Below are positions 4,640 through 64,000 of a DNA stretch of 64,000 bases, piece after piece. Both the position numbers and the translations under genes were made by a program. Position 1 is the first letter of the stretch. Each line of letters starts with the position of its first letter. This stretch comes from Ptychodera flava (Eukaryota; Hemichordata; Enteropneusta; Ptychoderidae): the NCBI RefSeq assembly GCF_041260155.1, contig NC_091928.1:31584888-31648887 (forward strand), written 5' to 3'. The notes under the pieces are model-generated. The model was not told the origin of the DNA. It searched no databases and saw nothing but the letters and a program-made list of their open reading frames with translations.

Positions 4640-6040
4640 TAATTGCACATCATAATTATAATCATAATCTTTATTTCTTATATAGCGCATTACATATTTA
4701 AATATCTAAACGCGCTTTACATTAAAAACAAAGAAATAAGTGACAAATAAAAACAGTAAATTTTAAATGTTCAATAAAAGTAACAGCTGGTAAAACTAAA
4801 GAAATGGCTAAAATAGATCAACAAATAAAACTCAGGTATTAAATGACTTAAAAGGGTATAAAACTCATGTATAAAATGACTTAAAAAGGTAAGTTTTTAA
4901 CCCGACTTTAAAATTATCGAGTGACTGAGATGCACGTTTAAGGTGCGACGGCAAAGAATTCCACAAACGAGGCGCACATATTGAAAACGCCCTATCACCA
5001 TAGTAAGCTGTGCGGCCGATGGGTTGATGTAACTTAATTTCCCCATTTGAAAATGAACGCAATGTATGACTAGTACTACATTTAATCAAAAGGTCATGAA
5101 GGTAAGATGGTACATGACTACAGAGAACTTTGAAAGTAATACAAAAAATTTTAAATTGAATACGTTGTTCAACAGGGAGCCAATGAAGGTCACAAGAATG
5201 GGAGTAATGTGATCACTATTTTCTCTTCCTGGTAACAAGTCGAGCTGCCGAAATTTGAATTGCTTAAATTTGCAGTTTGCGTATTTCAAACGAAGTGAGA
5301 CCGAAAAGTAAACTGTTGCAATAATCCAGGCGAGATGTGATAAAAGCATGAATGAGTTTCTCAGTTAAAGGCTGATCAAGTATATTTACGGATTTTACCA
5401 ATCTTCCAAAGAGCATGAGAGGCCGATTTACGCACATTGACAACATGTGCTGACATACTGCCACTAGAATCCATCGTGACACCAAGATTGCGAACACTGT
5501 CAGATGGGTGAACAATGACATCACCTATTTAATATCACAACGAGGAACCGAGCTTAGACCTGTAAATTTAGAAGAAAAATGAATGACCTCGGTTTTACCA
5601 TCATTTAGAGCGAGCATATTGTTTCGCATCCATCCCCTGATTTCATTAACACATAGCTCAATTAAAGTTGTCGGGACTTGATCTGCTTCGCAAGTGATAT
5701 ACGATTGCGTGTCATCAGCGTACATCATGTAATGTAATTTATGCTTGAAAATGATATCCTCTAAGGGTGCTGTGTACAGATGAATAAAATTGGTCCGAGA
5801 ACGGAACCTTGGGGTACACCACAATCGAGAAATTGTGCCTCAGACACGACTGACCCAACACACACTGCGTTCGCCCCTGCAGATAGGATTTAAACCAAGT
5901 CAGCACTGTCCCCGTGATACCAAATCTATGACACAGCCTATGTAATAAGATGTCGTGATCAATCGTGTCAAAAGCAGCAGATAAATCGAGTAAAATTAAA
6001 ATAACATCTTTGCGTCGATCAAGAGCACGTAGATATTAGG
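4640..6040 (-). mobile_element. 5'-truncated L2/CR1-like LINE
   Basis: Minus-strand translation shows reverse-transcriptase pieces in the right order. Near 5940-6005 is [21 protein letters not shown], the catalytic aspartates, lies at 5711-5722. RLDYCNSLLFG lies around 5290-5350, and a conserved C-terminal block AFSICAPRLWNSLP lies around 4960-5000. The 3' end has the GCGCTATATAAGAAATAAAG tail and an ATTATGATT-type repeat at about 4645-4690, as in L2/CR1-group elements. The pieces sit in several frames, so the copy is dead. The endonuclease and N-terminal RT are missing, as expected for 5' truncation. The clade within the L2/CR1/Jockey assemblage is inferred from motif style. Confidence 0.85.
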
Positions 6041-7157: not shown

Positions 7158-8448
<1,291 letters not shown>

Positions 8449-10667
8449 ATGGCAGCAAAAGAACCAACTTATTCAGAGGAAATAGACGACAATTTTTTGT
8501 CTTGTATCATTTGCTCAGAGCGTTACAACAATGCAAAACTGCTGCCGTGTCTTCACAGCTTCTGTGAGCCGTGTCTTGATAAGCTGGCAGAGGAAGGAGG
8601 GACGATAACCTGTCCAATATGTCGGCGCTCGCACCAACTTCCGGATACTGGCGTGGCAGGTGTCTGTGGTAATGTATTCATCAACGAACTGGTGAGAATG
8701 TTTAAAAGAGTGAAGGGGGCTCCATGGAGCCGAACACTTGCGATGGGTGCCAGGAAGCAGTATCTGTCAAACGCTGCATCGAATGCGAGGTTGACATGTG
8801 TAGAAATTGCGCTGTCTCTCACTCCCGATTTAGGGCTACAAGGTCACATCAACAGATGACCCTGGAAGAGTTCGAAGCTGCCAAGTCCGGGGATCCCTCC
8901 TCAGTGCAGCCACCTGTCTACTGTACCGATCACCCAGAGAGTCCAGTTGAATTTTATTGTGATACCTGTGACAGGGTCATCTGTGTAAGGTGTACAGCTT
9001 TCGAACACTCCAGACCTGAGCATCAATACAGTCACTTGACAGAGGTGGCGACGGAATACTACAAAGTTTTGAAGCAAGCAATCGAAAAGGTGAAAGTGAA
9101 AGAACTTGAAGCCGATCGAAGCAAAGCTGCTGTCATGGAAACGGCTGAATCACTTGATAGCTGTTACCAAGCAGAGAAAGAGATCATGGAACAACACATT
9201 CAGAAAACAATCGATGACGTCACTCGTATCATCCGAGAAAACGGTTACAAGCTTCTCGGAGAATTGAAAGACGAGTACAACAGAAGGAAAATAAACTTAA
9301 ACGCACAGTTGAAAGAATTGGAGTGCGTGGAGAGTGACATGTCATATGCAAGGGAGTATGCTGAGAAACTGATGCATTATGGGAATGCTGCACAGTTGAT
9401 GTCAGCCAAGAAAGGAATTTCATCTCAAATGGAAGAATTACTGAGAGTGGAAACAAAACTTGACCCGACTGAGACTGACTACATGGAGTTCAAACCATCT
9501 GATGATTTTTGTAAAGCAAAAACTCTGGGTGTGCTGTGTAACGACCTTGCAGAACGCTGTACATTGGTTGATGTTCCTGAGCATGTCAGGGTTAATGAGA
9601 ATATTGACATCACCCTAGAAACAGGTACACGACATAAGCGATGCAAGATGTGTGATTAAAGAGTGGACGCAGTCCTGACGAAACCGGATAAAAGCCAGGA
9701 AAACATCGCAGCCGCAGATGATGGTGATGGGACGTGGAGTTTGAAAACCGTTGCCACAATGGTTGGAAATCATGAAATCACAGTGTCTGTATCCAAGAAA
9801 CCAATCACAGGGTCGCCAGTGACAATCAGAGTGATTCCACAGAAAGGTTTGATTTGTAAATTTGGCAGGAAAGGTTCAGGTGAAGGAGACTTGGATGATG
9901 CTTGGGGTGTCATGGTAACGAGAGATGGCAATATTCGGGTGTGTGATCGGAACAATGAGAGATTGCAGACATTCACATTAAATGGGAAATATCAGTCTAC
10001 AACAACATTCAGTAATATTTCAACGACAGTTTCTCCTGATTGGTCGACAGTATCAGAGGATGGTACCATCTTTACGAGTGATGGCACTGTTGGTCAAGTA
10101 ATTGGACACGATGAGTTTGGCAGAGTGCTTAGATGTTTTGGAAAAGGAGTGATAAGTTATTGTTTTGGAATTGCAATGAGTCCCATGGATGGCAGAGTCT
10201 ATGTTGTTGATAATAAGGGGCACTGCATACATATTTATGATCAAGATGGCAATTATTGTAAGTCTTTTGGTTGTGAAGGACAAGGCCAAGGGCAGTTGTG
10301 TAAACCTGTAGGCATTGCAATTGACGGTGAAGGCAAAGCCTTTGTATCTGATCGGCACAATCATCGCATTCAAGTGTTTGATGCTGAGGGTCAATATCTG
10401 TACAGCTTTGGAAGTGAAGGATCTGGTGATAATCAGATGAGATACCCTTCGGGGATAGCACTTGATTGTGATGGCAATGTGTATGTGTGTGACAAAGGTA
10501 ATAACAGAGTGATGAAGTATGAATCTGATGGTAAATTTATCGGTCGTATTGACAGCGAAGATAATACGGTAGATGATCCTAGAAGTATTTGTGTTACGGA
10601 TGACAGACCATTGGGCTATGTTGTAACTAATTCCAAGGGGAAGAACATACAAGTCTTCTCACAGTGA
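8449..10667 (+). pseudogene. TRIM-NHL E3 ubiquitin ligase-like gene, interrupted
   Basis: An intronless TRIM2/TRIM3-type locus. The RING finger starts at the ATG at 8449 and has all eight ligands: C19, C22, C34, H36, C39, C42, C55, C58. It is followed in another frame (from about 8724) by a B-box1-like CxxC block, a B-box2 (YCTDHPESPVEFYCDTC), a coiled coil of roughly 130 residues, and the start of a filamin-like domain. After a stop the same frame continues with the rest of the filamin domain (ITGSPVTIRVIP) and about six NHL blades ending at 10667. Two breaks are seen: a one-base frame change near the G5 run at 8715-8719, and an in-frame TAA at 9657-9659. The family ubiquitinates targets and binds RNA or protein through NHL, often in innate immunity or development. 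The clean remainder suggests recent inactivation or an assembly error; a RING-only product of 136 residues remains possible. Confidence 0.85.
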
Positions 10668-16739: not shown

Positions 16740-17008
16740 TCATTAATGTGGGCAAAATGCACTGTGGGACGTGTCAGCGGTATTTCCCACAAGTCACGTG
16801 ACTCGATTCGTGAATAAGTAGGCCAGTGCTAGTATAGAGTTTGAATACTATACTTTTGTACATTTTATGTGAACCTTAAATCAAATTGGCACCGTTGAGC
16901 GTTAGTCACATTTGACGGTGAGATGCAGAGAGTCGGACGCGGATTCTTTATTTCTTATTCACTCCATAGTTTTTTGTATTTTTCCCTGTCTCGCTGAACT
17001 CGATCATT
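16740..17008 (+). promoter_or_regulatory. Putative promoter of the TNF ligand gene
   Basis: Just upstream of the TNF ligand start codon lies a palindromic E-box, AGTCACGTGACT, at 16792-16803, of the type bound by USF/MITF/TFE bHLH-zip factors. The near-NF-kB string GGTATTTCCC lies at 16780-16789. No convincing TATA box was found. The assignment as promoter rests on position and motif match only. Confidence 0.35.
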
Positions 17009-19235
17009 ATGGCTGATCAGTGGCAGAAAGGTGGTAAAATTGTGTCGCGTACTGTGATGATTTCCTGCTTACAGATGATCATCACTATTGTCATCTTTTC
17101 TCTCGTCATCGCAATTCTATGGCTCCACTTCCAGAGCGAGCTTTCCAAACTTAAAGTTTCCATGGAAAATTTGGACAACTCGCGGGCCAGTGGAGATCAG
17201 TCGAGGGCGACGTTAACTGCTGGCGGCAATTCAAAACCCTGCATATGCAGTAACCCTGGTATCGATTCGGGGACGACGGGAGGCCATGGCGGTGTAAATG
17301 CTGACGACAGGAACAGCCAAGACGGAGGAGAGAGCCAAAATTTGTTTAATTGCTGCTCAGCAAAGCAAGAAACGGTAGAACAGGTAAAAGAAGGATATTA
17401 TATTTCTTCGTTCTGACTCCTTCGAGCGTATAGTAAACACCTATTGCCTGTTCATGAGGGCTATTGTATCGCCCGTCTATTACCCCGAGGGACCGTGTGT
17501 TACCAGAAACACATCGCTATTCCCCGAGGCCGTAGGCCGAGGGGTATAGCGAGATGTTTCTGGTAACACACGGCCACGAGGGGTTATAGACGAGCGCTAT
17601 AGCCCGAATAAAGACCAGGCGATAGGTGTTTTATAACACACCACATGCTCATGTTGTATTGTTATATAGTTTTTAATGTGTTTTGATATTTTGCACCACA
17701 ACAATCCATTGTAACAAGTTTACTGGACGATGTATCCACAGCGGTTTCAGTTGTACGTGGTAGTACCACTTTCTTTCAAAAAATATTCTAAGCATACCTA
17801 GTGACATCCTTAGTTGCACTTTAATCTTTTCCGTCTATGAGCTGTTCAAGTTCCTACGCTGTTGGACTGTTGGAAAATGTTGGAAAATCTGTTTTAGAGA
17901 ATGTGTCGTCACGTATCCCGGACGCACATCACGTTCCAGTCACCCGCCATTGTTGCAAAGCTGCAGACGACACTACGGTCACGTGACCAGACACTTTTCC
18001 AAATTTGGTCAGGACTATTTCCCTAGGGAAATAGCTTTTCAAAAAATACCCTCTGACGTCACTTTTGTCGATCTGATGGGGACTAGACGTATCTATTTTC
18101 TCGTCACGTGACGTATTCTAGCGAATCGCGACACGGAATGAGCATGTGGCGTGTTATAATATGCACTGCGACACGGATATTCTCACACTTGTGAATGCCT
18201 CTTTACGGAAAGGTACCTGTAGTGCCCCCTATAGCCTCGTTTTGATTTACATCCGGGTACCTTTCCGTAAAGAGGCATTGTGAATAGTGCATTGGGGGAT
18301 TCCCGAACTCATTGTTATATAATAACTGATACAAAAGTCAGGCATGGTATGTCATTTAGGAGTGGGAGTGGCGCCACAATTATAACTACCTGTTTTCGGC
18401 GGCGGTTTCGTTTAAAATTTCACAATTTATTTCAAATACGAAGCCAAATTCACATGAGAGAAGTATGAAAGATTAAAATACTGAGATGTATCCAGTACAA
18501 TATACGATTGAAAAGATCTACCTTTTTGCGGTATCTTTTTACCCCATTTCGGATTTAACCACACCCGTCGTACAAAGTTAGACCACCTCTAACAATGACT
18601 GTTTTCATGGTATTCAAAACCAAGCGTATATTTGTCATTTTAATCCGTAAGAAAGAATATTATATGTGAATTTACTACAAGTGATAACGTTTTGATGAAT
18701 TTTTAGTGTACTTTCTCTGTTTGTAAGATGCAACTTCGGTTCTACTCCGTAAATCGTGTTGAGATGTCTTGTGTTCCACATATCAACGCAACCTCTGTGT
18801 GTGTGTCTGTGTGTGTGATGTTCAATGTTGATATTGACAACTCAATTCTAGTACGGACCAGCCTTCATTTGTCAACAATAACATCGCTTATTGTACGCAA
18901 TTACGAACATTACATTTACGGTAGAAGGATGTTGCGATGTACATGTCTTACAAAGTGAAAGTTATGAAACTATTATAAAAGTTACTGATTTTTTCCGTCA
19001 TTAAATGATTTATTTTCACTGTTTTTTTTCAGTTGATTGCAAAAGCCCTAGAAGACGAGAGGCAACTACTCGATCAATCAAGACAAGGTAAGTAGTTTCA
19101 ACCCTAAAAATAGCAGCGACGCGTGACCATTTAATTCCGTGTTTCGATTCTTATTTCTAAAAATATCTTGCATTGTATACGTAACAAACCACATTGCACA
19201 TTTAACGATATAGATTTGCAACTAACTGATGTTTG

Positions 19236-35483: not shown

Positions 35484-36928
35484 TTTCGATGGGTATCTCC
35501 TTCAAGGTGAACAGCTAGACGAATTGATCAAACACCGTCATTCCAAGGGCATGTGACTCAAAGTTGGCCATTGAGACTCTTTCAATGAGATGTCTTTCAC
35601 CGAATACGTGCCCAGTGAAGAGTGTTACATGGTTGTACCGAAGTCAGGACTCTACCATGTCTTCTCACAGTTAGATCTTGAGTATCCTTCATTCTGCGGA
35701 TATTTTAATTTTGTAAATCGTATTGATCAAGAAGAAGAATCGAAATACCATTTTATGGGCAAAAATTCTCAAAATAAGCCCCAACAAGTGGTAGATCAAA
35801 AAGGCACTGTAAAAATTTGAGAGTCAAAATATCTTTCCCCTAGGCGCATTCTACGTCAATGCTGTTCCCTGTTCTGCTTGCTAAAATCATGTTGACCAAC
35901 CTGTCAATTTTTAACGTCACACTGTTGAAACTTAGTCTTGACAGGTGTTCATTACACAAAAGCGACATTTTTTGCGTTATGTTGTCAAGGTTAATAGATT
36001 GTGAGCTTAATATTTACTTTACGGGAAGACTAGAAGCGCATTCTATTGAACAAAATAATAAAAACTGTCAAAGTTTTGCATCCTTTGTCCCTTTAATCAA
36101 TCAAGATTGCGTGCTATGATCACAGGCTGGCTTTCTAGATAGCAGAACGAGAGGCCATGGCCACCGAGCGGACCTCAAAAAATATCTGCATCATACTGTG
36201 TTAAGTGAGTAAATTTCACTCATTTTGTGCGATTGCCATTAATAAACGGTTGCTACATATTTCATTATGGGAGAGAGGCCCCTCTCAGTGACCAATTAAG
36301 ACCAGACGCGATTTTATACATCCGGCGGGTTGGGGTATGATATGACTCGTTAGTATGTCCGTTTCCCTTCGTCAGATTCTTCTTTTCTGTTATAACTAAA
36401 AGGGAATAAAGACAGAAGATGGGTCAGTGTACCATGTAACTGCGTTTCAATTTATGGGCCAGATTTGAGAATTTATCACAAAAAAGGGGCTTGTACATCA
36501 GAGCCTGGAGTAAGATCTCACTCCAGAGTCTGTGTATTTACTTAAAAATTGTTGTTTAAATCATGGTTATAGTTAAGCATGTCATCTGCTCTGAAATATT
36601 GGACAAATGCATATTCATCTACTTGTTTTATCTTGCAGCTAATAACGGATCGCCATATCATATTGACCTGATGAAAAGCGTTCACATCGGAAGTTTCCAT
36701 TCTGGACTGTTCCAACTGAGAGAGGGAGACAAGATCTACTTGAAAGTTTATTTACCGAGCAGCGAAGTTCAGTTAGACTGTTCTCCGGAGTCGACGTACA
36801 TGGGAATGTATCTTATCAGTGATGACCCGAGTGTGTTTAAATTATATTTTAATATGTTTATATTATTGGCAGATAACTGCCATAATCCCAGTAGAGGAAT
36901 TTACTGGTTGGAGAATTGGAATAAGTGA
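35484..36928 (+). pseudogene. Second TNF-superfamily ligand, remnant
   Basis: Two exon-like pieces match the 3' half of the gene at 17009-25956. Piece 1 (about 35484-35670) follows a TTTCTTGCTTTAG acceptor and ends in the TNF signature VVPKSGLYHVFSQ. It contains two in-frame TGA codons (35554-35556 and 35572-35574) and no GT donor directly after the CAG. Piece 2 (36641-36928) follows TTATCTTGCAG, is open in phase 1 like exon 6 of the intact gene, and reads GLFQLREGDKIYLKV then STYMGMYLI. A poly(A) signal AATAAA lies at 37164-37169. Exons for the tail, membrane anchor and stalk, and the equivalent of exon 5, were not found. I infer a tandem duplicate that decayed. Alternatively, piece 2 may still be used with exons I missed. 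Confidence 0.7.
35735..35857 (+). mobile_element. AGGTAG-family MITE, partial copy
   Basis: This is the 3' third of the family in forward orientation: 'CAACAAGTGGTAGATCA', 'CTGTAAAAATTTGAGAGTC', then 'CCCTAGGCGCATTCTACG'. It abuts the first TNF-like piece. Confidence 0.7.
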
Positions 36929-38680: not shown

Positions 38681-39830
38681 ATTTTATTTTATTAATTTTT
38701 ATTTTATTAATAATGACTTCCACAGCCGAGGCCATTTATGGAAGACTGTTAGTAAAAATACAGATACAGAGTTAAAGCAAGAAGACAAGACGAACAAACT
38801 TTAACAAATACTGAGAAAACAATGTTTTAAAACATTTTTAAAACCATTTAAATTTACAGACAAAGGATCAATGTCATTGTGTTCGTTTAAAAGCAAATTA
38901 AATTGTCTCGGAATTCTACTAAAAAGAGAGTCACGAACACAATTAACTCTACCAAATGGCACATGAAACAAAGTAGTACGCCGAGTTGAAAACCTTGGTA
39001 CATGAAGACTAAAAAATGAAGCTAAAGCATTAACATTAAACTTTGCATTTATGCATTTGTATAAAAATATATTATCAAATATAGTCCTCCTTGATTTTAA
39101 TGACTGTAAATTGTAAATATTGCACAACGAGTCAATGTCATCACTGTAAAAACCAGTAATTCTTTTATGAAGAAATGTTAAAAATTTATGCTGTACTCTT
39201 TCAATTCTATCAGACTGGTGTTTACTAATACTGTTCCAAATAACAGAAGCATATTCAAGCTTAGACCTTACCAAGGTAAAGTACAATAATTTTAAAACGT
39301 GCACACTGTTAATACAATGGCTATTCCTCATAATAAAACCGAGAGCTTTTCTAGCACCTTGAATCATGTTATTTACATGGTCCAAAAATTTAATCTTTGG
39401 TCAATAATAACACCGAGATCTCTTATGCTACTGACTCTACTCAATGCATGAGTGTCGAGTTTGTAAGGGAAAATATGAACATTTCTTTTCAATGAAACAG
39501 TAAGAACTTTACATTTAGTAGGATTAAGATTCAATAACCAAGTGTCAGACCAGCTGATAATTCTATCGATGTCAGATTGCAGCAATAAAGAGTCAATATC
39601 CGAATCAATGATACGATAAATCTTCATGTCATCGGCAAAAAGTAACGACTCCGACACAAGATTATCAGAGATGTCATTAATGAAAAGAATAAATAAAAGT
39701 GGACCAAGGTGAGAGCCCTGAGGAACGCCCGAAAGGACGTGAAAATATGCATAGCATGGTTGTATACTTTTCCTCTGTGACACTATAGCCATGATCAATG
39801 TCCAAGACAGATTCCTCTGCATATGAAATC
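38680..39830 (-). mobile_element. Second 5'-truncated LINE (Jockey/CR1-like)
   Basis: Minus-strand frames give RT motif 4/5, SGVPQGSHLGPLLFILFIND, and FADD (39628-39639). A thumb-like block, LNPTKCKVLTVS, follows, and then in a second frame RSKLEYASVIWN and about 150 more residues to a stop near 38801. One frame change lies between the two parts (near 39375-39395). The 3' end runs into ATTTTATTAATAAAAT-rich sequence at 38670-38710. It lacks the endonuclease and the front of RT. The motif style differs from the LINE at 4.6-6.0 kb, so it belongs to another clade. Confidence 0.88.
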
Positions 39831-40690
39831 CATGATGACTTTCTCAACAGTTATAATACTTGTATACGCTACAAGACACCTTAACCTTGATATGAACTAT
39901 GATTCTGTTTAAAACATTCATCAAATGAATTCAATCTACTTCAGCTGTCCAATAAAGCAATGTATAATGATGCAATGTCTACCTATGACAACAATCCTCT
40001 CTGTCAGTGATGACTTTCTCCCAATTCCACCAAGGTTGGTATTCTTTATCCATCCACGAACATGAACCCTTTTTAGCTTTGGTATTGAAGTTTGCATCCA
40101 CAGCATTCTAAGACCCTGATCGAGGTTTTTCTGTCTGAACTCTGAACCGTTTGCTTGTGCGACGTTGTTAAGACCAGGGAGAAATTCAAATTCACAAGCT
40201 GGCACAAGGACACAGCTATTATTCTGATTATTCAATGGAAACATCAGACAATGGCCTAAGGATTCCATGCACCGATCTCAATGCGCTACGTAATATGTAC
40301 GTTGTGTTTGATTTCGATTGTGAGCTCACGTTTGAGAAACATCATACTCTTTTCACTGATTATTGCCATGCTAATCAATGGTTTGCTGACCTATTTACAT
40401 TAAATTGAATTAACTTTTTCAAGACATTTTGACTTTTGATGACATACATTTCATGAGGTAGTTGATACATACATTTGAAGTAGTCGGTCATTGACAGCAC
40501 AGGAAACCTTTCCTCCACTCAATATTCATCGATCAATTGTCTTGACCTCAACAGTGTCAGGGGCACATTCCTCACGAATGCGTACTAAAATTATAAAGTG
40601 TGTGATATAGGCCAAATGAAAAAGACAAAATTACGGTACAAATATATCAATCCCTACGTTTCAAAGGAAAAACGACATAAAGCTGGTAGG
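39831..40690. other. Unresolved segment with one unidentified minus-strand frame
   Basis: A 110-codon minus-strand frame (40268 to 39936) is open and not low-complexity (FLPGLNNVAQANGSEF), but it matches no family I recognise. No splice context was confirmed. The rest is AT-rich and featureless. Confidence 0.3.
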
Positions 40691-40699
40691 TATATCATA

Positions 40700-43010
40700 T
40701 AACGCACTTAGCCAAATTTATAAAATCTCTATTTATTTGTAGCATGCAACAGGATAATTGAATGTCAGCCAGGGTATTAAAATTCTATTATTGAACGCCC
40801 TACAACAAGTCATGTATTTACATACACAATGTCACTTTGGATGACAGCAGTGTCTAAATATTACTAAAGTCACTAAGTTTGGGTCATTGCCTGGATCAGC
40901 AAAATATCTTGTAGCAAATTTGATTCAATCATAAAGTGAACAAATATTTCAAACTTTGTGAGGGGAAAAATGTCACAGAAATTGAAGTACTTGTCATGAT
41001 CCATTTGAATGTTACTACCGGTATTTGATTTCAGTGAGGTCAGACTAAACAATGTAGCTCAAAATGAATAAGATGGAAGAAACTAAATCTGAAATTAAAG
41101 ACTTGACTACAATGCTAGCAAATTACAATCACCTTTACTTGACATCCAGGACCTGTTTGATACAGATCTATCTTAAATACATATTTATCAACCATAAGAT
41201 GGCCGGTATTATGGGATGTCTTGGAATCTAGAGTAGAAGTCAAATGCTGCAGAAGTTACATTTTGATGAAATATCAAGTTAAGGAGTTGTTGACATAATG
41301 TTGGCAGACATGGAACTGCTTGCAAAATTCCTAAAAAAACGGTGCCAAGAGAAGTTAAATATTAATACATGCATTGAAATGTCAATGATTAGGAAACAAA
41401 TGGTACTTCAGGCTATCAACACTACCAATGCCTGTAAACTGGACTTTGGTACCAACCTACCGGTACATTGGTCTGGTTCCAAATCACCAGTGGTCATACA
41501 TGCAGTATTTCTGGGTGTCAGTCTGGTTCTAACTACTTCCCTGTGGATTACCCTTTAACTTCAGCTTCATATTTCCATGTATCTGCAAATCAGGATAGAC
41601 CAGTGAATGAGCTCGAGATTTATATACTAAGGTATGTGAGACCAGTTTCACAGGAAGTATTAATTGTGTAGTTAAAGCGTGTGCTGAATTTTCAACCAAA
41701 TGCCATTGCCTACCAAAGGTCAACTTTCGGCAAGTATGGTGACTTAATTTATTGCCTTGTTTTTGCATGATCAGTTGCCGAGCAAATATCCTACTAAAAT
41801 TTCATCTTTTATCATAAAAAATTACCAAAAATTACCACTATGATTCTTTTGTTGGGTGATTATACCTTGATGAAGTGAATTCAGACGATGAAAGCCTTAT
41901 CATACACGCTATAAATTTGCTAGTTCTTTACCTGAGACAATACAAATCGGTTTACTGAAGCTTGGATATAACGGCAACCCTAATTCAATTCAACTATTAC
42001 AGCTAACAAGTGACCTGGAGGCTGGCATATGCAAATTTCATCATCATTTGTACGAAACTGAATGACGTCATCCTTACTGACATAAAACCTTATCTGTTTG
42101 TTTCCGGATTCCGTATAAACATTTTGAGAGAAAAAGAGAAACAAAATTTTGAAAGTTTACAACTGCTAATTGTTTGAGAATATCTAATGGCTACATTGCT
42201 AAAAAGCCATAAGTATCAAAGTTGAAAGCTGTAAAACCAGCAATATTTGAGGAAATTGTTTCTCGGACACAGAGTGAAAATTTTGCTGTAAAATATTGCG
42301 AATGCAGTTTTTATCATTATTTGAACAAAACTGAGATATAATAACATACTGTCAAATTCAAAACCAAGTGCAATTCCTATTTGTTGGATGTGTACAGAGA
42401 AGATTTTTGAAGAGCAAGTAAAAAGCGTTTATAAAGATTCCTAAATCGTAATAAGGGCATTAATGAGAAGCTTTGCTTTGAAGTTGAATGCTGACAGACA
42501 AACAAAATCAGAGAAAATAACAGTTTTACAAAAATTGAGAACATGTAGCTAAGAAAATCTGCAAATACATTTTTCCTTGTCTTTTGAACAAATCTAAATG
42601 CAGTCGTTGAAGATTTTCCAAGCAGCAGTTTTAGAGAAAAAAAAAGCAAAGTTGACATAGGTCACCAGACAATGATGGATGGCTCCATGTTGCTTACAAT
42701 GGAGCTACAAAATTCTCATTCAGTAATTTCTAAATATCCAAAATATAGATCATAAGTTGATAGTATACTAGAATATGTATTATCTGTCAGATACCTGCAA
42801 CAGATATTAAAAATACACAGAGTATTCTCAGAGAATTCAGTGTGAGTTGACTGACCCCACAAAGGTCATCATAAATCACCAGTTTAGAATGGTGTAAATG
42901 TTTGTAATTATGTGTGGAAATTTGTGTTGATGCAAACCACAGGCACTGAAACAAGATTTTTAGCTTCTCGTCTGTTTACAGAGAGAGAAGTTATTCAAGT
43001 TCAAAAATGG
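40700..43010 (+). repeat. Segmental repeat, copy 1
   Basis: Non-coding segment whose ordered landmarks recur three more times in the window. They are AGCCAGGGTATTA (40765), CAGTGAGGTCAGACTAAACA (41032), CTGTAAACTGGACTTTGGT (41433), GCATATGCAAATTTCATCAT (42026), TTGAATGCTGACAGAC (42484) and TACAATGGAGCTACAAAATT (42697). Copies start near 44565, 48000 and 55918. Confidence 0.8.
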
Positions 43011-44560: not shown

Positions 44561-45186
44561 ACCCAATTCAGCTTATACGATAACCTCACATTGGTATACC
44601 AAATGTGAGCTAAACATTAATACATGCATTGAAATGCCAATGATTGGCAAACAAATAATACATCAGGCTTTCAACAGTCCTAATGTCTGTAACGTGGACT
44701 TTGGTCGATGTAACAATTAGTACTTACTGGTACATCGGCCTGGTCCCAAATCACCTGGGGTCACATGTGCAGTACTGTAACTCTGCATGTCAGTCAGTTT
44801 CTAACTGCTTCCCTGTGGATTGCTTAGAACTTCAGCTCAGATTTCCATGTTTCTACAAAAAGGATAGACCAGTGAACGAGATTTATACATAACAATACTA
44901 AAGTAGCTTATGTGAGACAATTTTACAAAAAGAATTTGTGTGGTTAGCTTGTGCTAAATTTCCCACCAAATGGCGGTATTTACCAAAAGGTCAACTTAGC
45001 AAGCATAATGACTTTTATTGCCCTGTTTGTGCATGGTCAGTTGTCCAACAAATATCCTGCTAATGTTTTTTTTATATCATAAAATGCTACAAAAAAATTA
45101 CTGTTATGATTCTTTTCGTTGACTGATTATAACTTGATGATGTGAATTCTGATGAAGAAGGCCATCACATACTTGTTATAAATTTA

Positions 45187-46377
45187 ACCCTTTGAGCGCT
45201 GTAATTTTTCCCGCCAAAAATTTTGATGCAACATTTTACAGATTTTATTAAGTTTCATGTATTTTTTTTCATAATTTTGGACTAAATGGACATTATATTT
45301 TATTGGCTACAGATTTTTATCAAACTTTTAGCAAAAAATTAGAAAAATATTGATTGGTGTACATATGATAAAGGTGACAAAATTTGACTTTGGCGCTTAA
45401 GGTGGTTGGAAAGGCAATTTTTGCACCAATTCTTTTCTCAGGGTTAATGTCAAGTTTCAAGTGTTAGAATCAAGATATTTAGTTCAAATTTTCAGGATAA
45501 CTCCCTAGTTAATATTTTCTCCAAAGAATATAAAAATTGTATATTTGCAGCCATGATTTTGAAATATGACACCAGTAAATATTAAAATTTAATTTTTCAT
45601 ATTTTTTTTACATATTTGAATTTAATAACAATTGGATAGTATTAATATTACCAAATTAGTTATAAATATGTTGACACTATTTATTGCAAGATTTGTACGG
45701 CAGGATTTGTAAATAAAATTTGTTTTTATGATTTTATATGGGTTTATATATCAAAAAATTATTAAAAATTCTTTCAAATTTCAAAATGTGATTTTTCAAA
45801 AAATACTTCAAATACAGGAAAATTGTGCCGTACAAATCTTATCTGTAACCTTGTTAGTAGGCTGTAAAAATTCCATGTCCATATCTCATTTCAAAGTTGG
45901 ATTAAATTAGTATACAATTATGTAGAAAACTGTTATTCTGTCAAAAATGTTGAAAACAAGCCATATTTGCACCCCTCTTTTGAAGTCATAGAGCAGTTTT
46001 TTTTGGTTAATCTCACTTTTGACACCTCTTTGACACTCAAAGAATCTAAAAATGCATTTACAATAGCAGTCACTCACTCTGAATGCCAGCACCGCCTTGT
46101 CAAACTTTCCTGAAAAACAGCAAATAATGACTTTCCCTTTTCAAACATTTTATCAAAAGCTAGGGGACCTCTACCATAGTTAATACACTAAGGACTCCCC
46201 AACTTCTTCTTATTTGGTCAGTTTTTCAGAAGTTTTAACAGGCTATAACTCTGCAATGCCTTTGTGCCCAAATGTCTAGTTTTTTTTATTCACAGAGAAT
46301 GTTGACTACTTTTATATTTTAATATTTTTTTTGAAATTTATAACTGACGCTCTAGCCTTTCCAACCACCTTAAGGGT
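45187..46377. mobile_element. ACCCTTTNAGCGC MITE split by another MITE
   Basis: The outer element starts ACCCTTTGAGCGCTGTAATT and ends CTTAAGGGT, with TA on both sides (45185-45186 and 46378-46379). Without the inner element it would be about 220 bp, the size of its relative at 16201-16417. Confidence 0.85.
45400..46370. mobile_element. AGGTGGTTGGAAAGGC element nested in a MITE
   Basis: A 971-bp element with perfect 16-bp terminal inverted repeats (AGGTGGTTGGAAAGGC and GCCTTTCCAACCACCT). A TA copy lies on each side (45398-45399 and 46371-46372). The interior is AT-rich and non-coding. The TA target and AGGT ends suggest a Tc1/mariner-related mobiliser, perhaps shared with the AGGTAG family. 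Confidence 0.9.
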
Positions 46378-47999: not shown

Positions 48000-49915
48000 G
48001 ACAATCATGAAAATAACACACTTTCCAAAATTCATAAAATCTTAATTCATTGGTAGCATGTAACAGCAAAATTGAATGGCAGCCAGGGTATTACAATTGT
48101 ATTGAATAGCATACAACAAGTCATGTAATTTACACACATCAAACAACGTCACTTTTGATGACAGCATTGTCTAAATATTAATGAAGTCACTAAATTTGGG
48201 TCCTTTACTTATAATCATAATGTGATCTGATATTTCAAATTTTGTACAATTTCAAATGTCCCAGAAATTGAAGTACTTGTCATGATCCATTTAAACATTA
48301 CTATCGGTATTTGTTTTCAGTGAGGTCAGACTAAACACTTTGATGTAGCTCAAAATGAAGAATAAGATGGAAATAACTAAATCTGAAATTTAAGACTTGA
48401 TAACAATGCTGGAAAATTTAATAATCACACTGACTTGACATTCAGAAACAGTTTACTTCTGTCTTAAATTAATAAATGGTACCAACCATTAGACGGCCAG
48501 TATTATGGGATGTCTTGGAATCTTGAGTAAGAGTCAAATGCTGCAGTATTGTTACTTGACATTTTGATGAAATATCAAGTTAATGAGTTGTTGAAGTAAT
48601 GTAGGTAGACATGGAAATGTTTGCAAAATAAATTCTCAAGAAATAGCGCCAAGAGAATGCATTGACATGTCAGTGATCAGCAAACAAATGCTACTTCAGA
48701 CTTTCAACACTCCAAATGCCTGTAAACTGGACTTCGGTCTCTGTACAAACCTACATTGGCCTGGTTCCAAATCACCTGGAGTCATATGCAGTATCTCTGA
48801 ATGTCAATCTTGTTCTAACTCCTTCCCAGTGGATTACTCACAACTTCAGCTTCAGATTTCTTTGTATCTACAAATAAGGATAGACCAGTGAAAGAGATTT
48901 GTACATATACTAAGGTATGTGAGACAGTGTTACAGAAAGAATTTCTGAGGATAGCTGTGCTGTATTTGACACCAAATGGCAATGCTTACCAAAAGGTCAA
49001 CTTACAACAAATATGGTGACTTTTATTGCCTTGTTTGTGCACGGTCAGTTGTTCAGCACATATCCTGCTAAAATTTATTCTTTATCATAAAAAATTGCCA
49101 AAAAATTACCATTATGATTCTTTTATTGGGTGATTATACCTTGACAATATGGATTCAGATGAAAGCCATATCATACAGGCTATAAATGTGTTAGTTCTTT
49201 ACCTGAGACAATACAAATTTGTTTACTGCAGCTTGGATAACATAACGGCAACTCAAATAATTCAACTATTACTGGCATAGGACTAGCAACAAGTGACTTA
49301 GAGGCTGGCATATGCAAATTTCATCATCATTTGTACAAATCTGAATAAGGCCATCCCTATTGACATGAAACAAAATTTGATTGTTTCACGATAAACATTT
49401 TGAGGAAAAAAATGAGGCAAAAGTATAAATGTGACACCTACTGATAGTTTAAGATTATCCAATAACTACATTGCTAAAAAGCCATTAGTATCAAATTTGA
49501 AAGCTGTAAAACCAACAATATAAGAGAAATTGTTTCTCAGATAAATAATGAAAATTTTGCTGCAAAATTGCAATTTTCATCATTATTTGAACAAAACTGA
49601 GAGGTAAGATACTGCCAATTTCAAAACCAAGTACAATTCCTAATTGATGGATGTGTACAGAGAAGACTTTTAAAGAAAAAGTGGAAACTGTCACGGACAG
49701 TAATTTTCCTAAAACGTGATAAGAGCATTACTTAGAAGCTATGCTTTGAATTTGAGTGCTGACAGACCAGCAATATTAGATAAAAAAGCAGTTTTATAAA
49801 ATGTAGCTCAGAAAATCTGCATATACACATTTTTATACATTTTGAAATTCTAAATGCAGTCATGGAAGATTTCCAAGCAGCAGTTTAAGAGAAAAAGTGC
49901 AAAGTTGACAGAGTC
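48000..49915 (+). repeat. Segmental repeat, copy 3 (first part)
   Basis: Collinear with copy 1: AGCCAGGGTATTACAATTG (48084), CAGTGAGGTCAGACTAAACA (48319), CTGTAAACTGGACTTCGGTC (48719) and GGCATATGCAAATTTCATC (49306). It stops after GCAAAGTTGACAGAG at about 49912. The continuation (GTGGAGCTACAAAATTC) is found 5.6 kb later at 55489, so the copy has been split by the insertion between. Confidence 0.8.
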
Positions 49916-55917: not shown

Positions 55918-57930
55918 TTTATTCAGCTTATACTATAAGCTAAAATTGGTATGCCAAATGTGAGCTAAAAATAATACATGCATTGATCATGCCATGATTT
56001 GCAAACCAATGATACATCAGGCTTCCAATAGTCTTAATGTCTGTAAAGTGGACTTTGGTCTCCATAACAACCTACCAGTACATTGGCATGGTCCCAAATC
56101 ACCTGGGGTCATACGTGCAGTATTTCTGCATGTCTGTCTGGTTCCGACTGCTTCCCTGTTGATTACTTACAACGTCAGCTTCAGATTTCCATGTATCTGC
56201 AAATCCGGATGGAATAGTGAATGAGATTCATACACAACAATACCAAGTTATGTGAGAGAGTTTTACAGAAGGTAATTGCATGGATAGCTTGTGTTGAATT
56301 TACCACCAAATGCACTGTTTACCAAAAGGTCAACTTACAACAAATATGGTGACTTTTATTGCCCTGTTTGTGCATGGTCAGTTGTCCAGCAAATATCCCG
56401 CTAATGTTTCATCTATTTCATAAAAAGCTACAGAAAATTACTGTAGTTATGATTCTTTTGTTGGTTGACTATACCGGTACCTTGATGATGTGAATTCTGA
56501 TGAAGAAAGCCATCTCATACTTGTTGTAAATTTAATATTTCTCATCTGAGACAAATACAAATCGGTTTGCTGAAGCTTGGATAACATAACGGCAACTCAA
56601 ATAATTCAATTCTTAAAGGTAACAAGTGACCTACAGTACAGGTTGGCGTATGCAACTTTCATCATCATTTATACAAAACTGAATGAGGCCTTCCCTATTG
56701 ACATGAAACCAAATTGAATTGCTTCTGAATAAGTTTCAGAGAAATTTTTTAACAATAAGAATATTTAACAACCACATTGCTAAAAACACCGTCAAGGACA
56801 ATGTGCTCATATTTGGGTCGAATTGGTCCATCAAGAAATATTTAAACCAGAAGAACAAGAATGACAAAGGTAAATAAGGTCTGAAACTTCAGGTACTGGA
56901 GGCTGCAAGTTTAGAAATAGGCTTAGCAGAGGAATGTTTCAACAGTCCTTCATGGTTTCAGCTGGTCTGCCAATATGTATCAGTTCATGAACACTGACAG
57001 GAAATGCCTCAAGGTCAGTGGAGTAGGCTGTTCCAGTCACTGATACCACTCCTACACATAGTAGGTACGCTGCATACAAATAGGCTAGAGATTACTGAAT
57101 CTCCAACTTAGATGTGTGGGTTGCTTCAGTTAATGCCACCACTCCTGCACATTTGCAGGATTTCCCCTTTTCTTACCTCATTTGCATATTTTTGACACTG
57201 ACATTCAGACATGTTCATTTGAACAACGTCACATCTCAACCCCTGAGTCTACCTATACACCAAATACTGTGCTGGTAAGTGAGGCGGTTTGGGAGCTTTT
57301 GCGTGTGACAGACATACCATACATGCATACATGCATACGCCATCGACTGGTATTTATATACATACGAAATATGAGCTAAAAAGTAAAAAGTGTCTCTATG
57401 CAAATGTTACAGTAATTTTCCTAAAACTTGATAAGGGCGTTACTAAGAAAGCTATGCTTTGAATTTGAATGCTGACAGACAAGCAATATTAGAGAGAAAG
57501 AAGTTTTACATAAATTGAGGAAATGTAGCACAGAAAATCCACATTTCCACATTTCCTTATCTTTTGGACAAATCTAAGTGCAGTCATGGACGATTTCCGA
57601 GCAGCAATTTTAGAGAAAAAGTACAAAGTTGACAGAGAACACCAACAATGATGGATGCCGATCCATGTCACTCACAGTGGAGCTAAAATGTCACCAGTTA
57701 GTAATTTCCAGATATCCAAAGTATAGATTATTTATCCAATTCCAATTAATCTCATAGTTCCAGTTAATGTTATACCAAAATATGTATCTGTCAGATACTT
57801 GCAGCTGATATACAGATATTATACCTACCGGTATGTACTCACCTCATTAACAGTACGAGTTGACTCCTCTGACCCACAGAGTCATGAGTGACCTCTTTCA
57901 TAAATCACAACAGTACAATTGTATTAATAT
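55918..57930 (+). repeat. Segmental repeat, copy 4
   Basis: Starts TTCAGCTTATACTATAAGC, like copy 2. It has CTGTAAAGTGGACTTTGGTC (56041) and 'GGTTGGCGTATGCAACTTTC' (56641). After about 56790 a roughly 580-bp unrelated stretch intervenes. Homology resumes at about 57378 (TAAAACTTGATAAGGGC, GAATGCTGACAGACAAGC) and runs to about 57930. Confidence 0.75.
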
Positions 57931-59061
57931 TTGAAATTACAAAACAAATGCTGCTAATGAATAGAGATTTACTTGAAGTCAACAGCTGCAGCCAATTTTG
58001 AAACTACCAAAATCACTGATACTGATATCATCGCGAGTGAAGAGTTATTTCCAGCAACAGTAGTTATCAATCTGCAGTACAATTTTCGTTTGGAATTAGT
58101 GAGTTGACAAACAGCTTTATCTATGGTACTTTATTGCATACTAATGATGTCATAGGTAAGAGAGTATACTAAAAAGGAGGGGATATGAGTGACAATTTGC
58201 CAGATGTAGATCTCAGATACATGAAACGCAGATATTGATAGCATTATGATTACACACTGGATGAAAAGATAGGATATTCTGTTGACAAAAGAACAAGAGG
58301 GTTACAGGCTAGGCGAGGTACCTGGACATTGGACACCTAATCATCAAATTATCCAGCTCTATAGTGAGCCATGTACAGTGCCTTACTTGGTAATTTGCAA
58401 GCTCCTTTGTTATCATAATAGCAATATTTGCATGTTTTTTGTTTCAGTTGATGGTAGGCACTTTGTGCACATGTGGAGGGAAAGTTACCATAAATCATAT
58501 CTGAGTTTTAAGCATTAGAATAGGGCCAGCTGCTTATATCCTGTAATCAAGGATTTGACATTCAAAATGAAAATCATTACGTGGAGAAAGGTTAATTCGG
58601 TTTCAAACAACAAAAGAAAGTGAGCTTATTTTATTAGTAACTTTCAATATCTACACAAGAAAAAATGCCCTGTTTGGATGCTGAACTCGATATCAAAAGC
58701 ACATTCATCAACTTTGCTGGCTTTCAGTTGGTGTATAGACCGGTAACACATGTGTGTTTTGTACAGTCAAGCTTTGAGTCGGTCTCAACTTACCAGAAGA
58801 ACAATCCTGAATCCAACTTATAATTCCACAAAATCCAAAGATTTGAAAATTACTGCCTTGTTGTCTCTTTGTTACAGGTATTCATTTGTACAAACAAGTA
58901 CGTATTTTAAAGTCTTTCATGTTCAGGACAACTTTAATCAGTGAAGGAAATCCTGTGAAACAACTGAAACAACAGCTCAAATCCTGTGATATTTTGAAAT
59001 TGACTAGCTATATACATGTATAAGTATATGGTAAATTGAATCATTACATGCAACAAACAAT
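57931..59061. other. Upstream of the GT4-like gene
   Basis: No exon confirmed. A frame at 58282-58518 contains a GTTTCAG acceptor-like site and the string VDGRHFVHMWRESYHKSY, but no family was recognised. No obvious TATA or CpG-rich promoter was seen before 59062. Confidence 0.3.
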
Positions 59062-61317
59062 ATGGCAGCACTACTTGTATCAACATCCTGGAACAAAAGT
59101 CCTCAGGGATCAACAACCTGGCAGCTGATCAGTGATTTCTGTGAAAACACACTGAAGAAAAAGCCTACTGAGTTGTCTGCAATTCACTGCACTGTCCTTG
59201 ATGTTGAACTGAGTGAAGATCTAAGAAAAGATGCTACAGCACATACAGTGGATTTAATTCCAGCAACAAGACCACAATGGTCTGATCCTGCTGAAGATCC
59301 ACCTGCAATAAACTGGCTTCTCAATCATGTCAACTACTATGAACACCTGCAGAATCTGCAAGATATTAGACATGTAGTTGCATTGTCTGCAAAGACAAAA
59401 AATGCTGCATCTGCTATACATAAACAACTCTTCCCTAAAGCCAAACTTCACCAAATACAGTCCAAACCTTCTGCGTTGTTTGTTGCAAATTCCTGGGATA
59501 AAGATGAGTTAGGTCTCACAGCATTTCACAGATCTCTTGTCCAAGATTTCTGTGACAGAAAGGCAAGTGGAGAAGCCCTGAAAGCCTACTCTACTGTACT
59601 TGATGTCAAAATCAGTGATGAACAGAAGAAAGATGCTGAGAGCTGTGGTGTTACCTTGATTCCAGCACAAATAAAGGAACTAGCTGATCCAGAAGATGAA
59701 CTTCCTGCACTGAAGAGGTTGGCACATCACCCGATATACTACCCAGACCTGAGAGAATTGGAAAATATCCAGTATGTAATTGGTTATGGTCCAACGACAG
59801 GACTGGCAGCAGCTGATATCAAAGCAAAACTGTTTCCCAGTGCAAAGTTAGTTCTCATCAATCATGTCTGCCCAGAACATAACTGTCTGCAAACTATAAA
59901 GAGCAGATTACAAGACTTTGAAGAAAAGATGCTGCGTATGGCAAAGTATGGCAAGTAAAGCAGACCTGATATTTTCCATTGGACCCAAGATCCACCAGTA
60001 TTTTCAGAATGCATACAGGGCTGAGGTCAATGGTAAATACTTGTCAGAGATTCCACATGAAGAAATTCTCCCAAGACCTGTCAGCTGTCAGTTGGGGAAG
60101 GATCCACAAAAAGGGGAAATTCAACAACACCACATACTGACATGTGGTCAGATTGATACACAAGAAGCCATAGAAAGATGTGATGTCATGGCAGCTTCTA
60201 TTGGTACTGCAGCTAATCAGTGGAAGGCAACACACACAAACTCTCCAATGTGGAAGATACAGGGTATCTCCCAACAAGCAGACAATACTATAGAAAAGTT
60301 CATATCCAACAAAATTAAGTGTCCTCATATCAAGCCCACTCTTCATCCAGGCCACTCAGCAAAAGCTCTGCTCAGATCTCTACAACAGTCTCACCTCTGT
60401 CTGCCCCTGCCTTCCTATGTTGATTACAGCTTTTATGGATTAGAAGCAATGGTATCTGGTTTACCAACAGCTGTCGATGAAAATTCTCATCTGGCTCACT
60501 TCATCATTAAACACTTTGAAGATCACACTGATGACTCCATTGTCAAAAGTCCTAAAAAGAACCTGTCCGAGAAAATAGTGAACCATCTTCAAAACACACA
60601 TGTGGCCTTTAAGAAAGCAAAGTGCCTGAAAACAGACTTAGTGAACAGTGAAGTCATATCAACAAGTTATGCAAGGTTTGCCTCCCGTGTAACTACATCG
60701 TTCAAGCAACAAAGTGGAGATGACAGCAAAGATAAAGGAGTGGAGAAAAACAAGAAGGTATTCATCAAGTTGGAATTTCTATAATCACTGTAATTTTTTT
60801 AAATATTTTAATGTGGCATTCTGATAAAGCATGCAAACTCAAATTAAAGTGTAAACACAAATTTACAAATCCTCGTCTGCTGATTGTAAAACAGACAACT
60901 TAAGACAATGACATCAATTATTGACTGTAACAGCAAGAACTAAATTAAATTTATACTCCAGATACAGTGCGTAAAACTCACATGGTATTATTGACAAAAT
61001 GTTGAGTGTGATCACTCCCATCAAAAGTCAGCAAGATATCAGATGTATCACTAAATGCATGAAAACATCTAAGTTGTTCCCTGAGCCCATGTGGCAAAAC
61101 TAGATAATTGTTGCCAGCTATTGAACGACAGAAAAAGACAGCTGTCCTGTTAAGAAATAGAGTTTGCTGTTAGTGCATTGAGTCTTGATCCTTTCTGCAC
61201 ACTCATGTGATTTGCAGATCATGCAGCAATTGGGCAATGACTCTGCTGAAGAGCCTCCAGCAGTTCCCACAACAGTTCAACAGTTTAAACCAATGCGATC
61301 GACCATCAGAACCAAGA
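59062..61317 (+). CDS. GT4-like protein with duplicated N-lobe, frame broken
   Basis: Frame 1 (59062-59958, 298 codons) holds two tandem copies of a Rossmann-like domain, about residues 3-132 and 138-268. Shared landmarks are SWNK/SWDK, DFC, TVLDV, LIPA, YY..L and KLFPxAKL. The next frame (59948-60757) continues with ADLIFSIGPKIHQYF and a C-lobe ending SFYGLEAMVSGLPTAVDENS, the layout of GT-B family 4 glycosyltransferases. The two frames join exactly if one copy of a 10-bp tandem duplication (59936-59955) is ignored. A GT donor at 60758 and an AG acceptor at 61216-61217 give a further exon, 61218-61317 (phase 0, donor AGA|GTAAGT), so the gene continues downstream. The glutamate usually opening the GT4 E-x7-E motif is Val here, suggesting loss of catalysis. 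Related modules occur at the N-terminus of large metazoan defence-type proteins (recalled family knowledge). Function is unknown. The ATG at 59062 is the first in the open frame. Confidence 0.75.
59936..59955 (+). repeat. 10-bp tandem duplication that shifts the frame
   Basis: GTATGGCAAA at 59936-59945 is followed by GTATGGCAAG at 59946-59955. The extra ten bases move the reading frame of the GT4-like gene from frame 1 to frame 2 and create the TAA at 59956-59958. Confidence 0.9.
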
Positions 61318-63534
61318 GTAAGTTATCAAGCGGCTGGTTACATGCAAACCCACGACCTAGCAAAAATAGTATAGTTTGACGCGCGCCTCCAACACTGAAT
61401 TTATAGTGGTGCAGACTCGCTGTTGTTCTGGTGAGTTGGATGTGTCTATTGTCATCATAAGTGTAATATTTGTCCTTCATCGTTCATGCGGCAAACAGCT
61501 GTTTGTGCTGACGCCAATGTGGTGAAGGGTCGGTCTTTTATGTTATTGTAGTACGGTCTTTTTTCTCGGAGTCCTTCCCTCACTAGTGTTATATTCCTTA
61601 CTACACACTTAAGAAAGGTGAAAGCATTGTTCTAAAGGTAATGTCTGCTGCAGCATACCGGTACATAATGAGAACTGACCTGTAAACTATAATAAGGTTG
61701 AATTCCGTTGTGACGACAAAGGATGGGCTCAAGAGGCACTCGAACAGCTGGCTGCACAGTATGTCTTTGTTGATTTGGGTGTACAAGTTTCATGCTGTAA
61801 TATTTTTGAAAGAAGCATGATGAATTGCTACGGGGTACTACTGTCATGGGAGAAACGAGGTGGAATATTTGTCAAAGATGTCAGTTACAGGTGGAGACTT
61901 GATAGATAACTACACTTCAGCGGACAGACTTACACAGTATTCGGTCCTTGATATAAGAAGAGCTGAAGCAAGTGAGAAGACAGATGCACTCGGGTACATA
62001 AAGATCAATATCTATAGTATCTAGTTGCCTACAAAAACAGAGTTGCAAGTCATCATCTGCCAGGTGATAAACCCCTAGCAACTCCGTTGGCTGTCCCATT
62101 GAAGCAGTTTCTGCCAAGTGAAGATTATTATTGTACTTGGGCCTCAGCCCAAGTACATTTGTTTTCATTCCGTGGGAAAAAACTGTAAGGTTATAACCAT
62201 TTCTGGCTGAGACCAGGGAGGGCAAAATGTATTGGCTTCATCTTTCTTGGCATAATAAATGGCGTAATGATGTTAACTGAATGGAAGTGCTGCTCTCAGC
62301 CAGTCTTGAATAAGTGAGATGTGAATATAAATGCTTCTCTATCTGAGTTTTTGCCACAAAATCTTCTGAATATAATCAAAATGTGCATCGAAATGCAACA
62401 ATTAATGTACCCTCCGTTTACTAGGCGATGGCACGACCCTTGCTACACCCACTGGACGAGCCAAAGTGGGAGGGGTAATTTCGGTTTGGTCGAACAGGAG
62501 GGCTCGAGACCAGAATTTAACATTTAAACTTGAAACATGTTTAATCACTGACAAGATGTGGATTAGTGTTAATCAAGAGAAAGTTTGAAAAGGAAAGGTT
62601 TTATATCCCGGACACAATGAAAAACATTACGACTGGAAACTGTACCCCCGGTTGAGAATAGTAATGCCCACAGCGATGGAGAACACTTATCCTTGAGCTG
62701 AGAAAACCAGACCATCATTTCGAAATAGAGCTGCAGATTCGAGAAGCTCGTTAAAAATAGCTAGGTACACCCCATAAAGGGGTGGTTTCGAGTCTTGAGG
62801 GCAAATTTCGCCTCCTTCATTTAGAAATCGTATGTTTGTTTTTCCAGGGGAACACATCATTTGACACAAAATTTGCATGAAAAGGGGTCGCCAGTAAGCA
62901 CGTGGTCAAATCTGGCATAAGAAACAATATGAAATGTTGGGTAAAGCCAGTCCAAAATAAACTGATTTGAACTTTTGTGTTTTGTAATTTATACCACTGC
63001 AGTAACATGACTTTTTTTTGACAACATCACACAATGTAATACGTTTTGAAACTGAATACTCTGACGTATTCTGTGTCCCCTTTGCTAAAAAATACGGTAT
63101 GCCGATTACCATGTAAGGAGATGATGACGTCAAGACAGATTTGTAGTGCGTTTGGTCTTGGATGGTGCACGAAGTTTTGTCGAGGTAGCTTGTGTATTTA
63201 TTTCCTAAATGGGAGATATTAGGGTCGATCTAAAAGAAGGCCGAAAAATGTTATGATACTCTAAGCGAGCTGAACTCCAATGCGAATGGTTGGATAATTT
63301 GGAGGGTGTCTAGACTGATCTCGTCTCATTAAGATTATTTGGCGGTCAGTATTGAATTTCAACTGCGTCACAAGTTTGCGTCGAACGGTCAACGAACGAT
63401 ATTTTAGAAATCTGGAGACATGGCAGTTTTATTTTAGTATTTTATATTTTACAAAAGATGTAAGAAGCAATGATTTTGTTGAAAATTCTGCAAAAAATAT
63501 AGGAAGATTTGATCGCGAACACATTTTCACTTGG
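61318..63534. other. Downstream of the last GT4-like exon, nothing recognised
   Basis: The donor at 61318 requires more exons, but I could not identify one here with certainty; they may lie beyond the window. Frames are under 105 codons and without domains. Confidence 0.4.
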
Positions 63535-63866
63535 GGGTCAACTAGCCCTGCGTACGATGCTGTGTGTTCCGCTACAGCTAACCGCCCCGCTCACCACAGC
63601 CCTGCAAAGACCCGTACGTTGGGTCGGTGACTTCAAATCCATTTTGGGACTTGACGTAAAAAGCCAAATTACTGCCGAAATTCAGCGTTCTTGGGCCCAA
63701 GTCGTATCCCAGCCTACCTCAGCTACTCGATCGCTTCCAAAATGACAGTCTTTTATTCACTTCTCGTAAATAACCGTCGAATGTCGGCAACTCTCTCGCT
63801 GGCCCTGCGTACGATGCTGTGTGTTAGCTGTAGCACATAGCATCGTACGCAGGGCTAGGGGTCAAC
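63535..63866. repeat. Triplicated GCCCTGCGTACGATGCT motif with hairpin
   Basis: CTAGCCCTGCGTACGATGCT occurs at 63542-63561, nearly again at 63799-63818 (CTGGCC...), and inverted at 63839-63858. The last two form a stem of about 20 bp with a 20-base loop. GGGGTCAAC lies beside the first copy (63535) and the third (63858). Confidence 0.85.
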
Positions 63867-64000
63867 ATGGGGTCGCAGCCATGTTGCCTCAAAACTTATT
63901 TCTGTCTGCACTCAAAACTCAAAAATGTCGCACATGAACCTGAAAAATCGATGTAATTTTGTCAAACTTCGGCGAAATTTCAGCCTATAGACAAAATTTC

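Follow-up and report, generated by a model that had tools for sequence, protein, structure and literature searches.

The window, by which we mean the whole stretch of 64,000 nucleotides analysed here, carries on its plus strand a gene of the GT4-conflict family (PF20706) in which a truncated and a complete GT-B N-lobe, termed D1 and D2, precede a single C-lobe (Table 1). Upstream on the same strand lies a TRIM-type gene with RING, B-boxes, filamin-like and NHL repeats and no evident introns (8446–10667), in which the frame changes near 8706 and an in-frame TAA is found at 9657–9659; this gene is likely a pseudogene or affected by assembly errors. With this TRIM-type gene, a weak TNF-like match and a reverse-transcriptase fragment, the window resembles animal DNA in its gene content. 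Direct repeats of as much as 2 kb and about 71–84% identity are dispersed over positions 40699–42660 and 48013–49913, with further pieces at 44566–45187, 55921–56725 and 57409–57938, the last of which ends about 1.1 kb before the GT4-conflict gene begins.

Table 1. Position and nature of the features in and behind the GT4-conflict gene.
Feature	Position	Strand	Basis or remark
D1: extra, truncated GT-B N-lobe, β1 to β5, residues 1–134	59062..59463	+	
D2: complete second N-lobe, residues 135 to about 320, spanning the frame break	59464..60022	+	PF20706, AF2 model
10-base near-tandem repeat ATGGCAAAGT/ATGGCAAGTA at the frame change	59938..59957	+	
Single GT-B C-lobe, residues about 345–527, second frame	60095..60643	+	
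Degenerate donor-pyrophosphate site: Q363, E371, R372	60149..60178	+	Alignment to MshA and bacterial rows
Degenerate EX7E motif PSYVDYSFYGLE	60410..60445	+	Second Glu E461 (MshA E324) retained, first lost
Polar tail behind the C-lobe; end at TAA, or splicing at weak donor GT 60758	60644..60784	+	
Possible downstream exon, low-complexity linker	61218..61317	+	Phase 0, pyrimidine-rich acceptor, GTAAGT donor

The region cannot be read as one open protein, as the original prediction had taken it to be. Its first frame (59035–59958) encodes 298 residues from the Met at 59062, with which the start of D1 coincides, and is closed by a TAA at 59956–59958, and the C-lobe is contained in the frame 59900–60784. 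The open frame breaks at about 59938–59960, beside the near-tandem repeat, and this is the single break found across the 1.72 kb coding stretch. A pseudogene or an erroneous assembly may lie behind the broken allele; the gene either worked until recently or was broken by a fault of assembly or sequencing.

When the break is read through, the protein matches PF20706 with E 4e-36 and 125.2 bits (cut-off 26) over profile positions 1–373 of 385, and each frame passes this cut-off alone (first frame E 8.7e-17, second frame E 4.2e-16). The earlier call of a GT4-like protein of the GT-B type was right, and PF20706, 'GT4-conflict', is its best Pfam family; no other GT4 family of Pfam matched the protein at E up to 10. 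The PF20706 cut-off is by itself unspecific, being exceeded in every one of 14 ordinary control genomes, presumably by common GT4 enzymes. A profile of the family N-lobe (A3), which shares columns with the D2 match, hits only four of the 79 genomes of one bacterial class. The structure models display the two-lobed, Rossmann-like GT-B fold. One N-lobe and one C-lobe are the usual arrangement of GT4-conflict proteins, in contrast to the N-N-C order found here, but this arrangement is no stated rule of membership and is that of D2 and the C-lobe taken alone. In the sections of Kaur et al. 2021 (PMC8195603) that concern the family, it is known from marine invertebrates and bacterial conflict systems, its GT4 domains are fused to TRADD-N in cnidarians, cephalochordates and hemichordates, and it is proposed to be an enzymatic effector of invertebrate immunity. 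Fusions of GT4-conflict domains to immune or cell-death domains (TRADD-N, Death-like, STAND) are frequent, not obligatory.

Each of the six motifs on which the original prediction had based two tandem N-lobes is indeed present twice at similar spacing, with offsets of 134–137 residues: SWNK at residue 9 and SWDK at 144, DFC at 25 and 162, TVLDV at 44 and 178, LIPA at 65 and 199, YY..L at 92 and 226 and LFPxAKL at 123 and 257. D1 and D2 are identical in 50 of 130 residues (38%; E 2e-28 in BLASTP), and their Smith-Waterman score is 218 compared to a maximum of 54 among 2000 shuffles. While the likeness of the two lobes is confirmed in this way, they are not equivalent, as D1 ends after β5 in the structure models without the final helix-strand-helix present in the complete D2. 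The predicted fold of D1 is confident when D1 is modelled with its own alignment, and the order of its elements is the same in this model and in the full-length AF2 model, in the alignment of which D1 is covered by no other row. That one C-lobe follows the two N-lobes was borne out by a match to PF20706 profile positions 141–373.

A separate profile search with each N-lobe had been suggested. D2 is detected with profile positions 1–118 of PF20706 alone (E 2.8e-13) and with the family N-lobe profile (E 5.5e-17, two-sequence search), whereas D1 reaches 14.5 bits against the curated PF20706 (E 0.018) and stays under the cut-off of 26. A profile of 40 bacterial family domains matches D1 alone at positions 6–115 with E 5.8e-6 and D1 inside the first frame with E 5.8e-5, each in a search of four sequences. 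As D1 falls below the curated score and the search with the bacterial profile was confined to four sequences, D1 is best supported by its likeness to D2. D1 and D2 are sisters with support of 100/97 in a tree that also contains 35 bacterial N-lobes, albeit with the placement of D1 made uncertain, according to the tree program, by its branch length; the end branch of D1 measures 1.55 and that of D2 0.57, indicative of a faster evolution of D1. Relative to the 35 bacterial N-lobes, the sister grouping places the doubling within the lineage of the window protein.

The N-N-C order was not encountered elsewhere in our comparison set, which for doubling as well as decay consists of bacterial loci and genomes only. 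The 49 N-lobe ORFs at 80 bacterial loci comprise 48 with the order N-C and one with an N-lobe alone, and a second N-lobe was present in none of the 49 at E ≤ 1e-3. Likewise, none of the five N-lobe places detected in four of the 79 genomes of one bacterial class contained tandem N-lobes.

According to the sections of PMC12182360 on GT4 enzymes, it is the C-lobe that binds the donor nucleotide and the N-lobe that binds the acceptor. Hence, the doubled part is the acceptor-side lobe and not, as had been supposed, the nucleotide- or sugar-facing one. We mapped the functional residues by aligning a family profile (A2) to MshA, whereby MshA R231, K236, E316, E324 and H133 correspond to positions 363, 371, 453/454, 461 and 268. 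At positions 363, 371 and 372, R, K and G (MshA R231, K236 and G237) are found in 36 of 36 bacterial rows, and the basic donor-pyrophosphate pair of active GT4 enzymes (MshA R231/K236) is replaced by Q363/E371 in the window protein. The EX7E motif of active GT4 enzymes is reduced to its second Glu (PSYVDYSFYGLEA); the first, MshA E316, is V453 or D454 depending on the choice of alignment. The acceptor-side His is retained, with H268 in the place of MshA H133, and D2 keeps Gly151 besides His268. D1 has a Ser at the position of this His, and neither lobe retains the first Gly of the GG loop, which is replaced by Gln in D1 and by Leu in D2. Parts of PMC3898925 and PMC12182360 describe the roles that the basic donor pair and EX7E play, and G23 and H133 are named as acceptor-side residues in PMC12182360.

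Beyond these residues, 18 of the 36 near-invariant columns, defined as common to at least 34 of the 36 bacterial rows, are kept in the window protein (among them W145, G151, G247, H268, G307, G401, E461, G466 and P468) and 18 are changed. Nine of the changed columns lie in the run 448–457, where the alignment register is open. The changes beyond the donor pair include N156H, H to Y242, H332, Q400, H476 and L501, and columns changed outside the donor site indicate that decay is wider than this site. The invariance of EGF in the bacterial rows is partly built in because one of the two search patterns held MPSR[AT]EGF, a bias that leaves the conservation of R and K and the comparison to MshA unaffected.

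Since the donor pair is Q/E and the first EX7E Glu is lost, the protein is, judged by its residues, probably a pseudo-glycosyltransferase that serves as a binding module. The 'binding or sensing module' envisaged in the original prediction fits this loss of donor-site residues, a line of evidence on which that prediction had not drawn. By sequence and model, the donor site is gone, yet the fold persists in the models and the family match remains strong. We read this as the signature of a pseudoenzyme, although a dying gene would look partly similar.

Downstream of the C-lobe, residues 549–573 of the tail have an AF2 pLDDT below 50. At 60758, the sequence of the putative donor (GTATTC) appears weak, and 60784 is an equally plausible end of the ORF. 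The candidate exon at 61218–61317 can be read in phase 0 behind a fair acceptor and gave no match to Pfam; it is one of five such candidate exons in 60758–64000, four of which share the GTAAGT donor, and its use in the gene is possible. A defence role had been suggested together with a larger defence-type protein continuing downstream. The association with defence is supported at the level of the family (PF20706; the relevant sections of PMC8195603), whereas no immune domain was detected in the 13 scanned of the 18 plus-strand frames of at least 40 residues that start after 60785 in the window, which ends at 64000. A larger protein continuing downstream is possible.

Taken as a whole, the observations may be accounted for by an animal GT4-conflict member in which part of the N-lobe was doubled and the donor site decayed, and which no longer transfers sugars and is used as a binding surface; we give this explanation an even chance. 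Its first two steps, a tandem duplication, within the gene, of the first five β-α units of the N-lobe and decay of the donor-binding site of the C-lobe, are shown by the sequence. Sugar transfer would have been lost, and the GT-B cleft, with its kept N-lobe His and second EX7E Glu, might together with the extra N-lobe bind a ligand or a partner protein. Hinge closure is usual in GT-B folds. Ligand binding, perhaps through such a closure, could be relayed to a signalling domain of the full gene, by analogy to other GT4-conflict proteins fused to TRADD-N and related domains.

A broken gene might also simply be decaying. In a former GT4-conflict gene, both catalysis and frame would have been lost and the doubled N-lobe would be a functionless scar; we regard this as a minor though serious possibility. 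The frame break with its stop at 59956–59958 and the 18 changed columns among the 36 that are near-invariant in the family agree with it, as does the TRIM-NHL gene at 8446–10667 of the same window, which also shifts frame and has an in-frame TAA, so that lesions are not confined to the GT4-conflict gene. However, only one break is present in 1.72 kb, core residues are retained in both frames and D1 is still predicted to fold confidently. Moreover, D1 and D2 are only 38% identical and neither contains a stop, which argues that the doubled form has been open for a long time.

Retention of the acceptor-side His (MshA H133, H268) and of the second EX7E Glu would suit an active GT4 effector with molecules of the invader or the host as its glycosylation targets and with an extra N-lobe that broadens the choice of acceptors, as would the proposal made at the family level in the respective sections of Kaur et al. 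(PMC8195603). We consider such an activity improbable: the donor-pyrophosphate site has lost both of its basic residues to substitution and EX7E its first Glu, D1 has the aforementioned Ser, and the first GG-loop Gly is missing from both lobes (Gln in D1, Leu in D2). The published enzymatic-effector proposal fits this member poorly. It is very improbable that the broken frame is real and used, yielding a 298-residue two-N-lobe protein that would regulate intact paralogs or act as their decoy. Both N-lobes do lie in the open first frame, which stops just before the last D2 strand, but the product would be without this strand of its second N-lobe, and the second frame keeps its family match along its length (E 4.2e-16), which suggests recent selection on the C-lobe.

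Returning to the non-transferring binding protein, the erased donor site, the predicted GT-B fold and the doubling of only the acceptor-side lobe point to a receptor-like use. A more far-reaching version, rather unlikely in our view, is that a bacterial-type conflict glycosyltransferase was horizontally acquired and turned into an animal immune receptor, dropping catalysis and doubling its acceptor-side lobe to become a two-site ligand sensor. If true, this sensor would parallel the decayed NTPases proposed as invader sensors. The case offers a sharp test for the function of the greatly expanded animal GT4-conflict families, namely ligand binding without transfer, and its value is lowered by the broken frame.

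The window protein shares its best profile match (E 4e-36) and the GT-B fold with the GT4-conflict family and differs from it by the doubled N-lobe and the lost donor-site residues. Also close to it are the GT4-type enzymes MshA (PDB 3c4q) and sucrose-phosphate synthase Tll1590 (6kih). In contrast to both, the window protein has an extra N-lobe in front, and MshA R231, K236 and E316 are Q363, E371 and V453 or D454 in it. Structures of VldE are among the Foldseek rows for the whole model. This pseudo-glycosyltransferase is, by the account in parts of PMC3441724, likewise glycosyltransferase-like and diverted from glycosyl transfer; unlike the role suggested here, VldE still catalyses a coupling reaction, and a doubled lobe is unmentioned in that account. 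The iSTAND modules (inactive STAND NTPase modules) of conflict systems provide, in the pertinent sections of PMC8195603, a precedent in which a decayed enzyme is proposed to sense invaders. They belong to a different family.

Elsewhere in the window, broken reverse-transcriptase-like frames of LINE-like elements are located on the minus strand at 5525–6035 and 38801–39843. The former gave a weak RVT_1 match at 5528–5839 (E 2.3e-5, below the cut-off), and the latter, without a Pfam match at 38804–39400, was judged reverse-transcriptase-like from its letters. On the plus strand, 16970–17416 is without a Pfam match but resembles the N-terminus of a type II membrane protein, and 36560–36928 gave a weak match to the C-terminal portion of the TNF family (E 0.0014, below the cut-off); both are possibly parts of one TNF ligand gene with a long intron.
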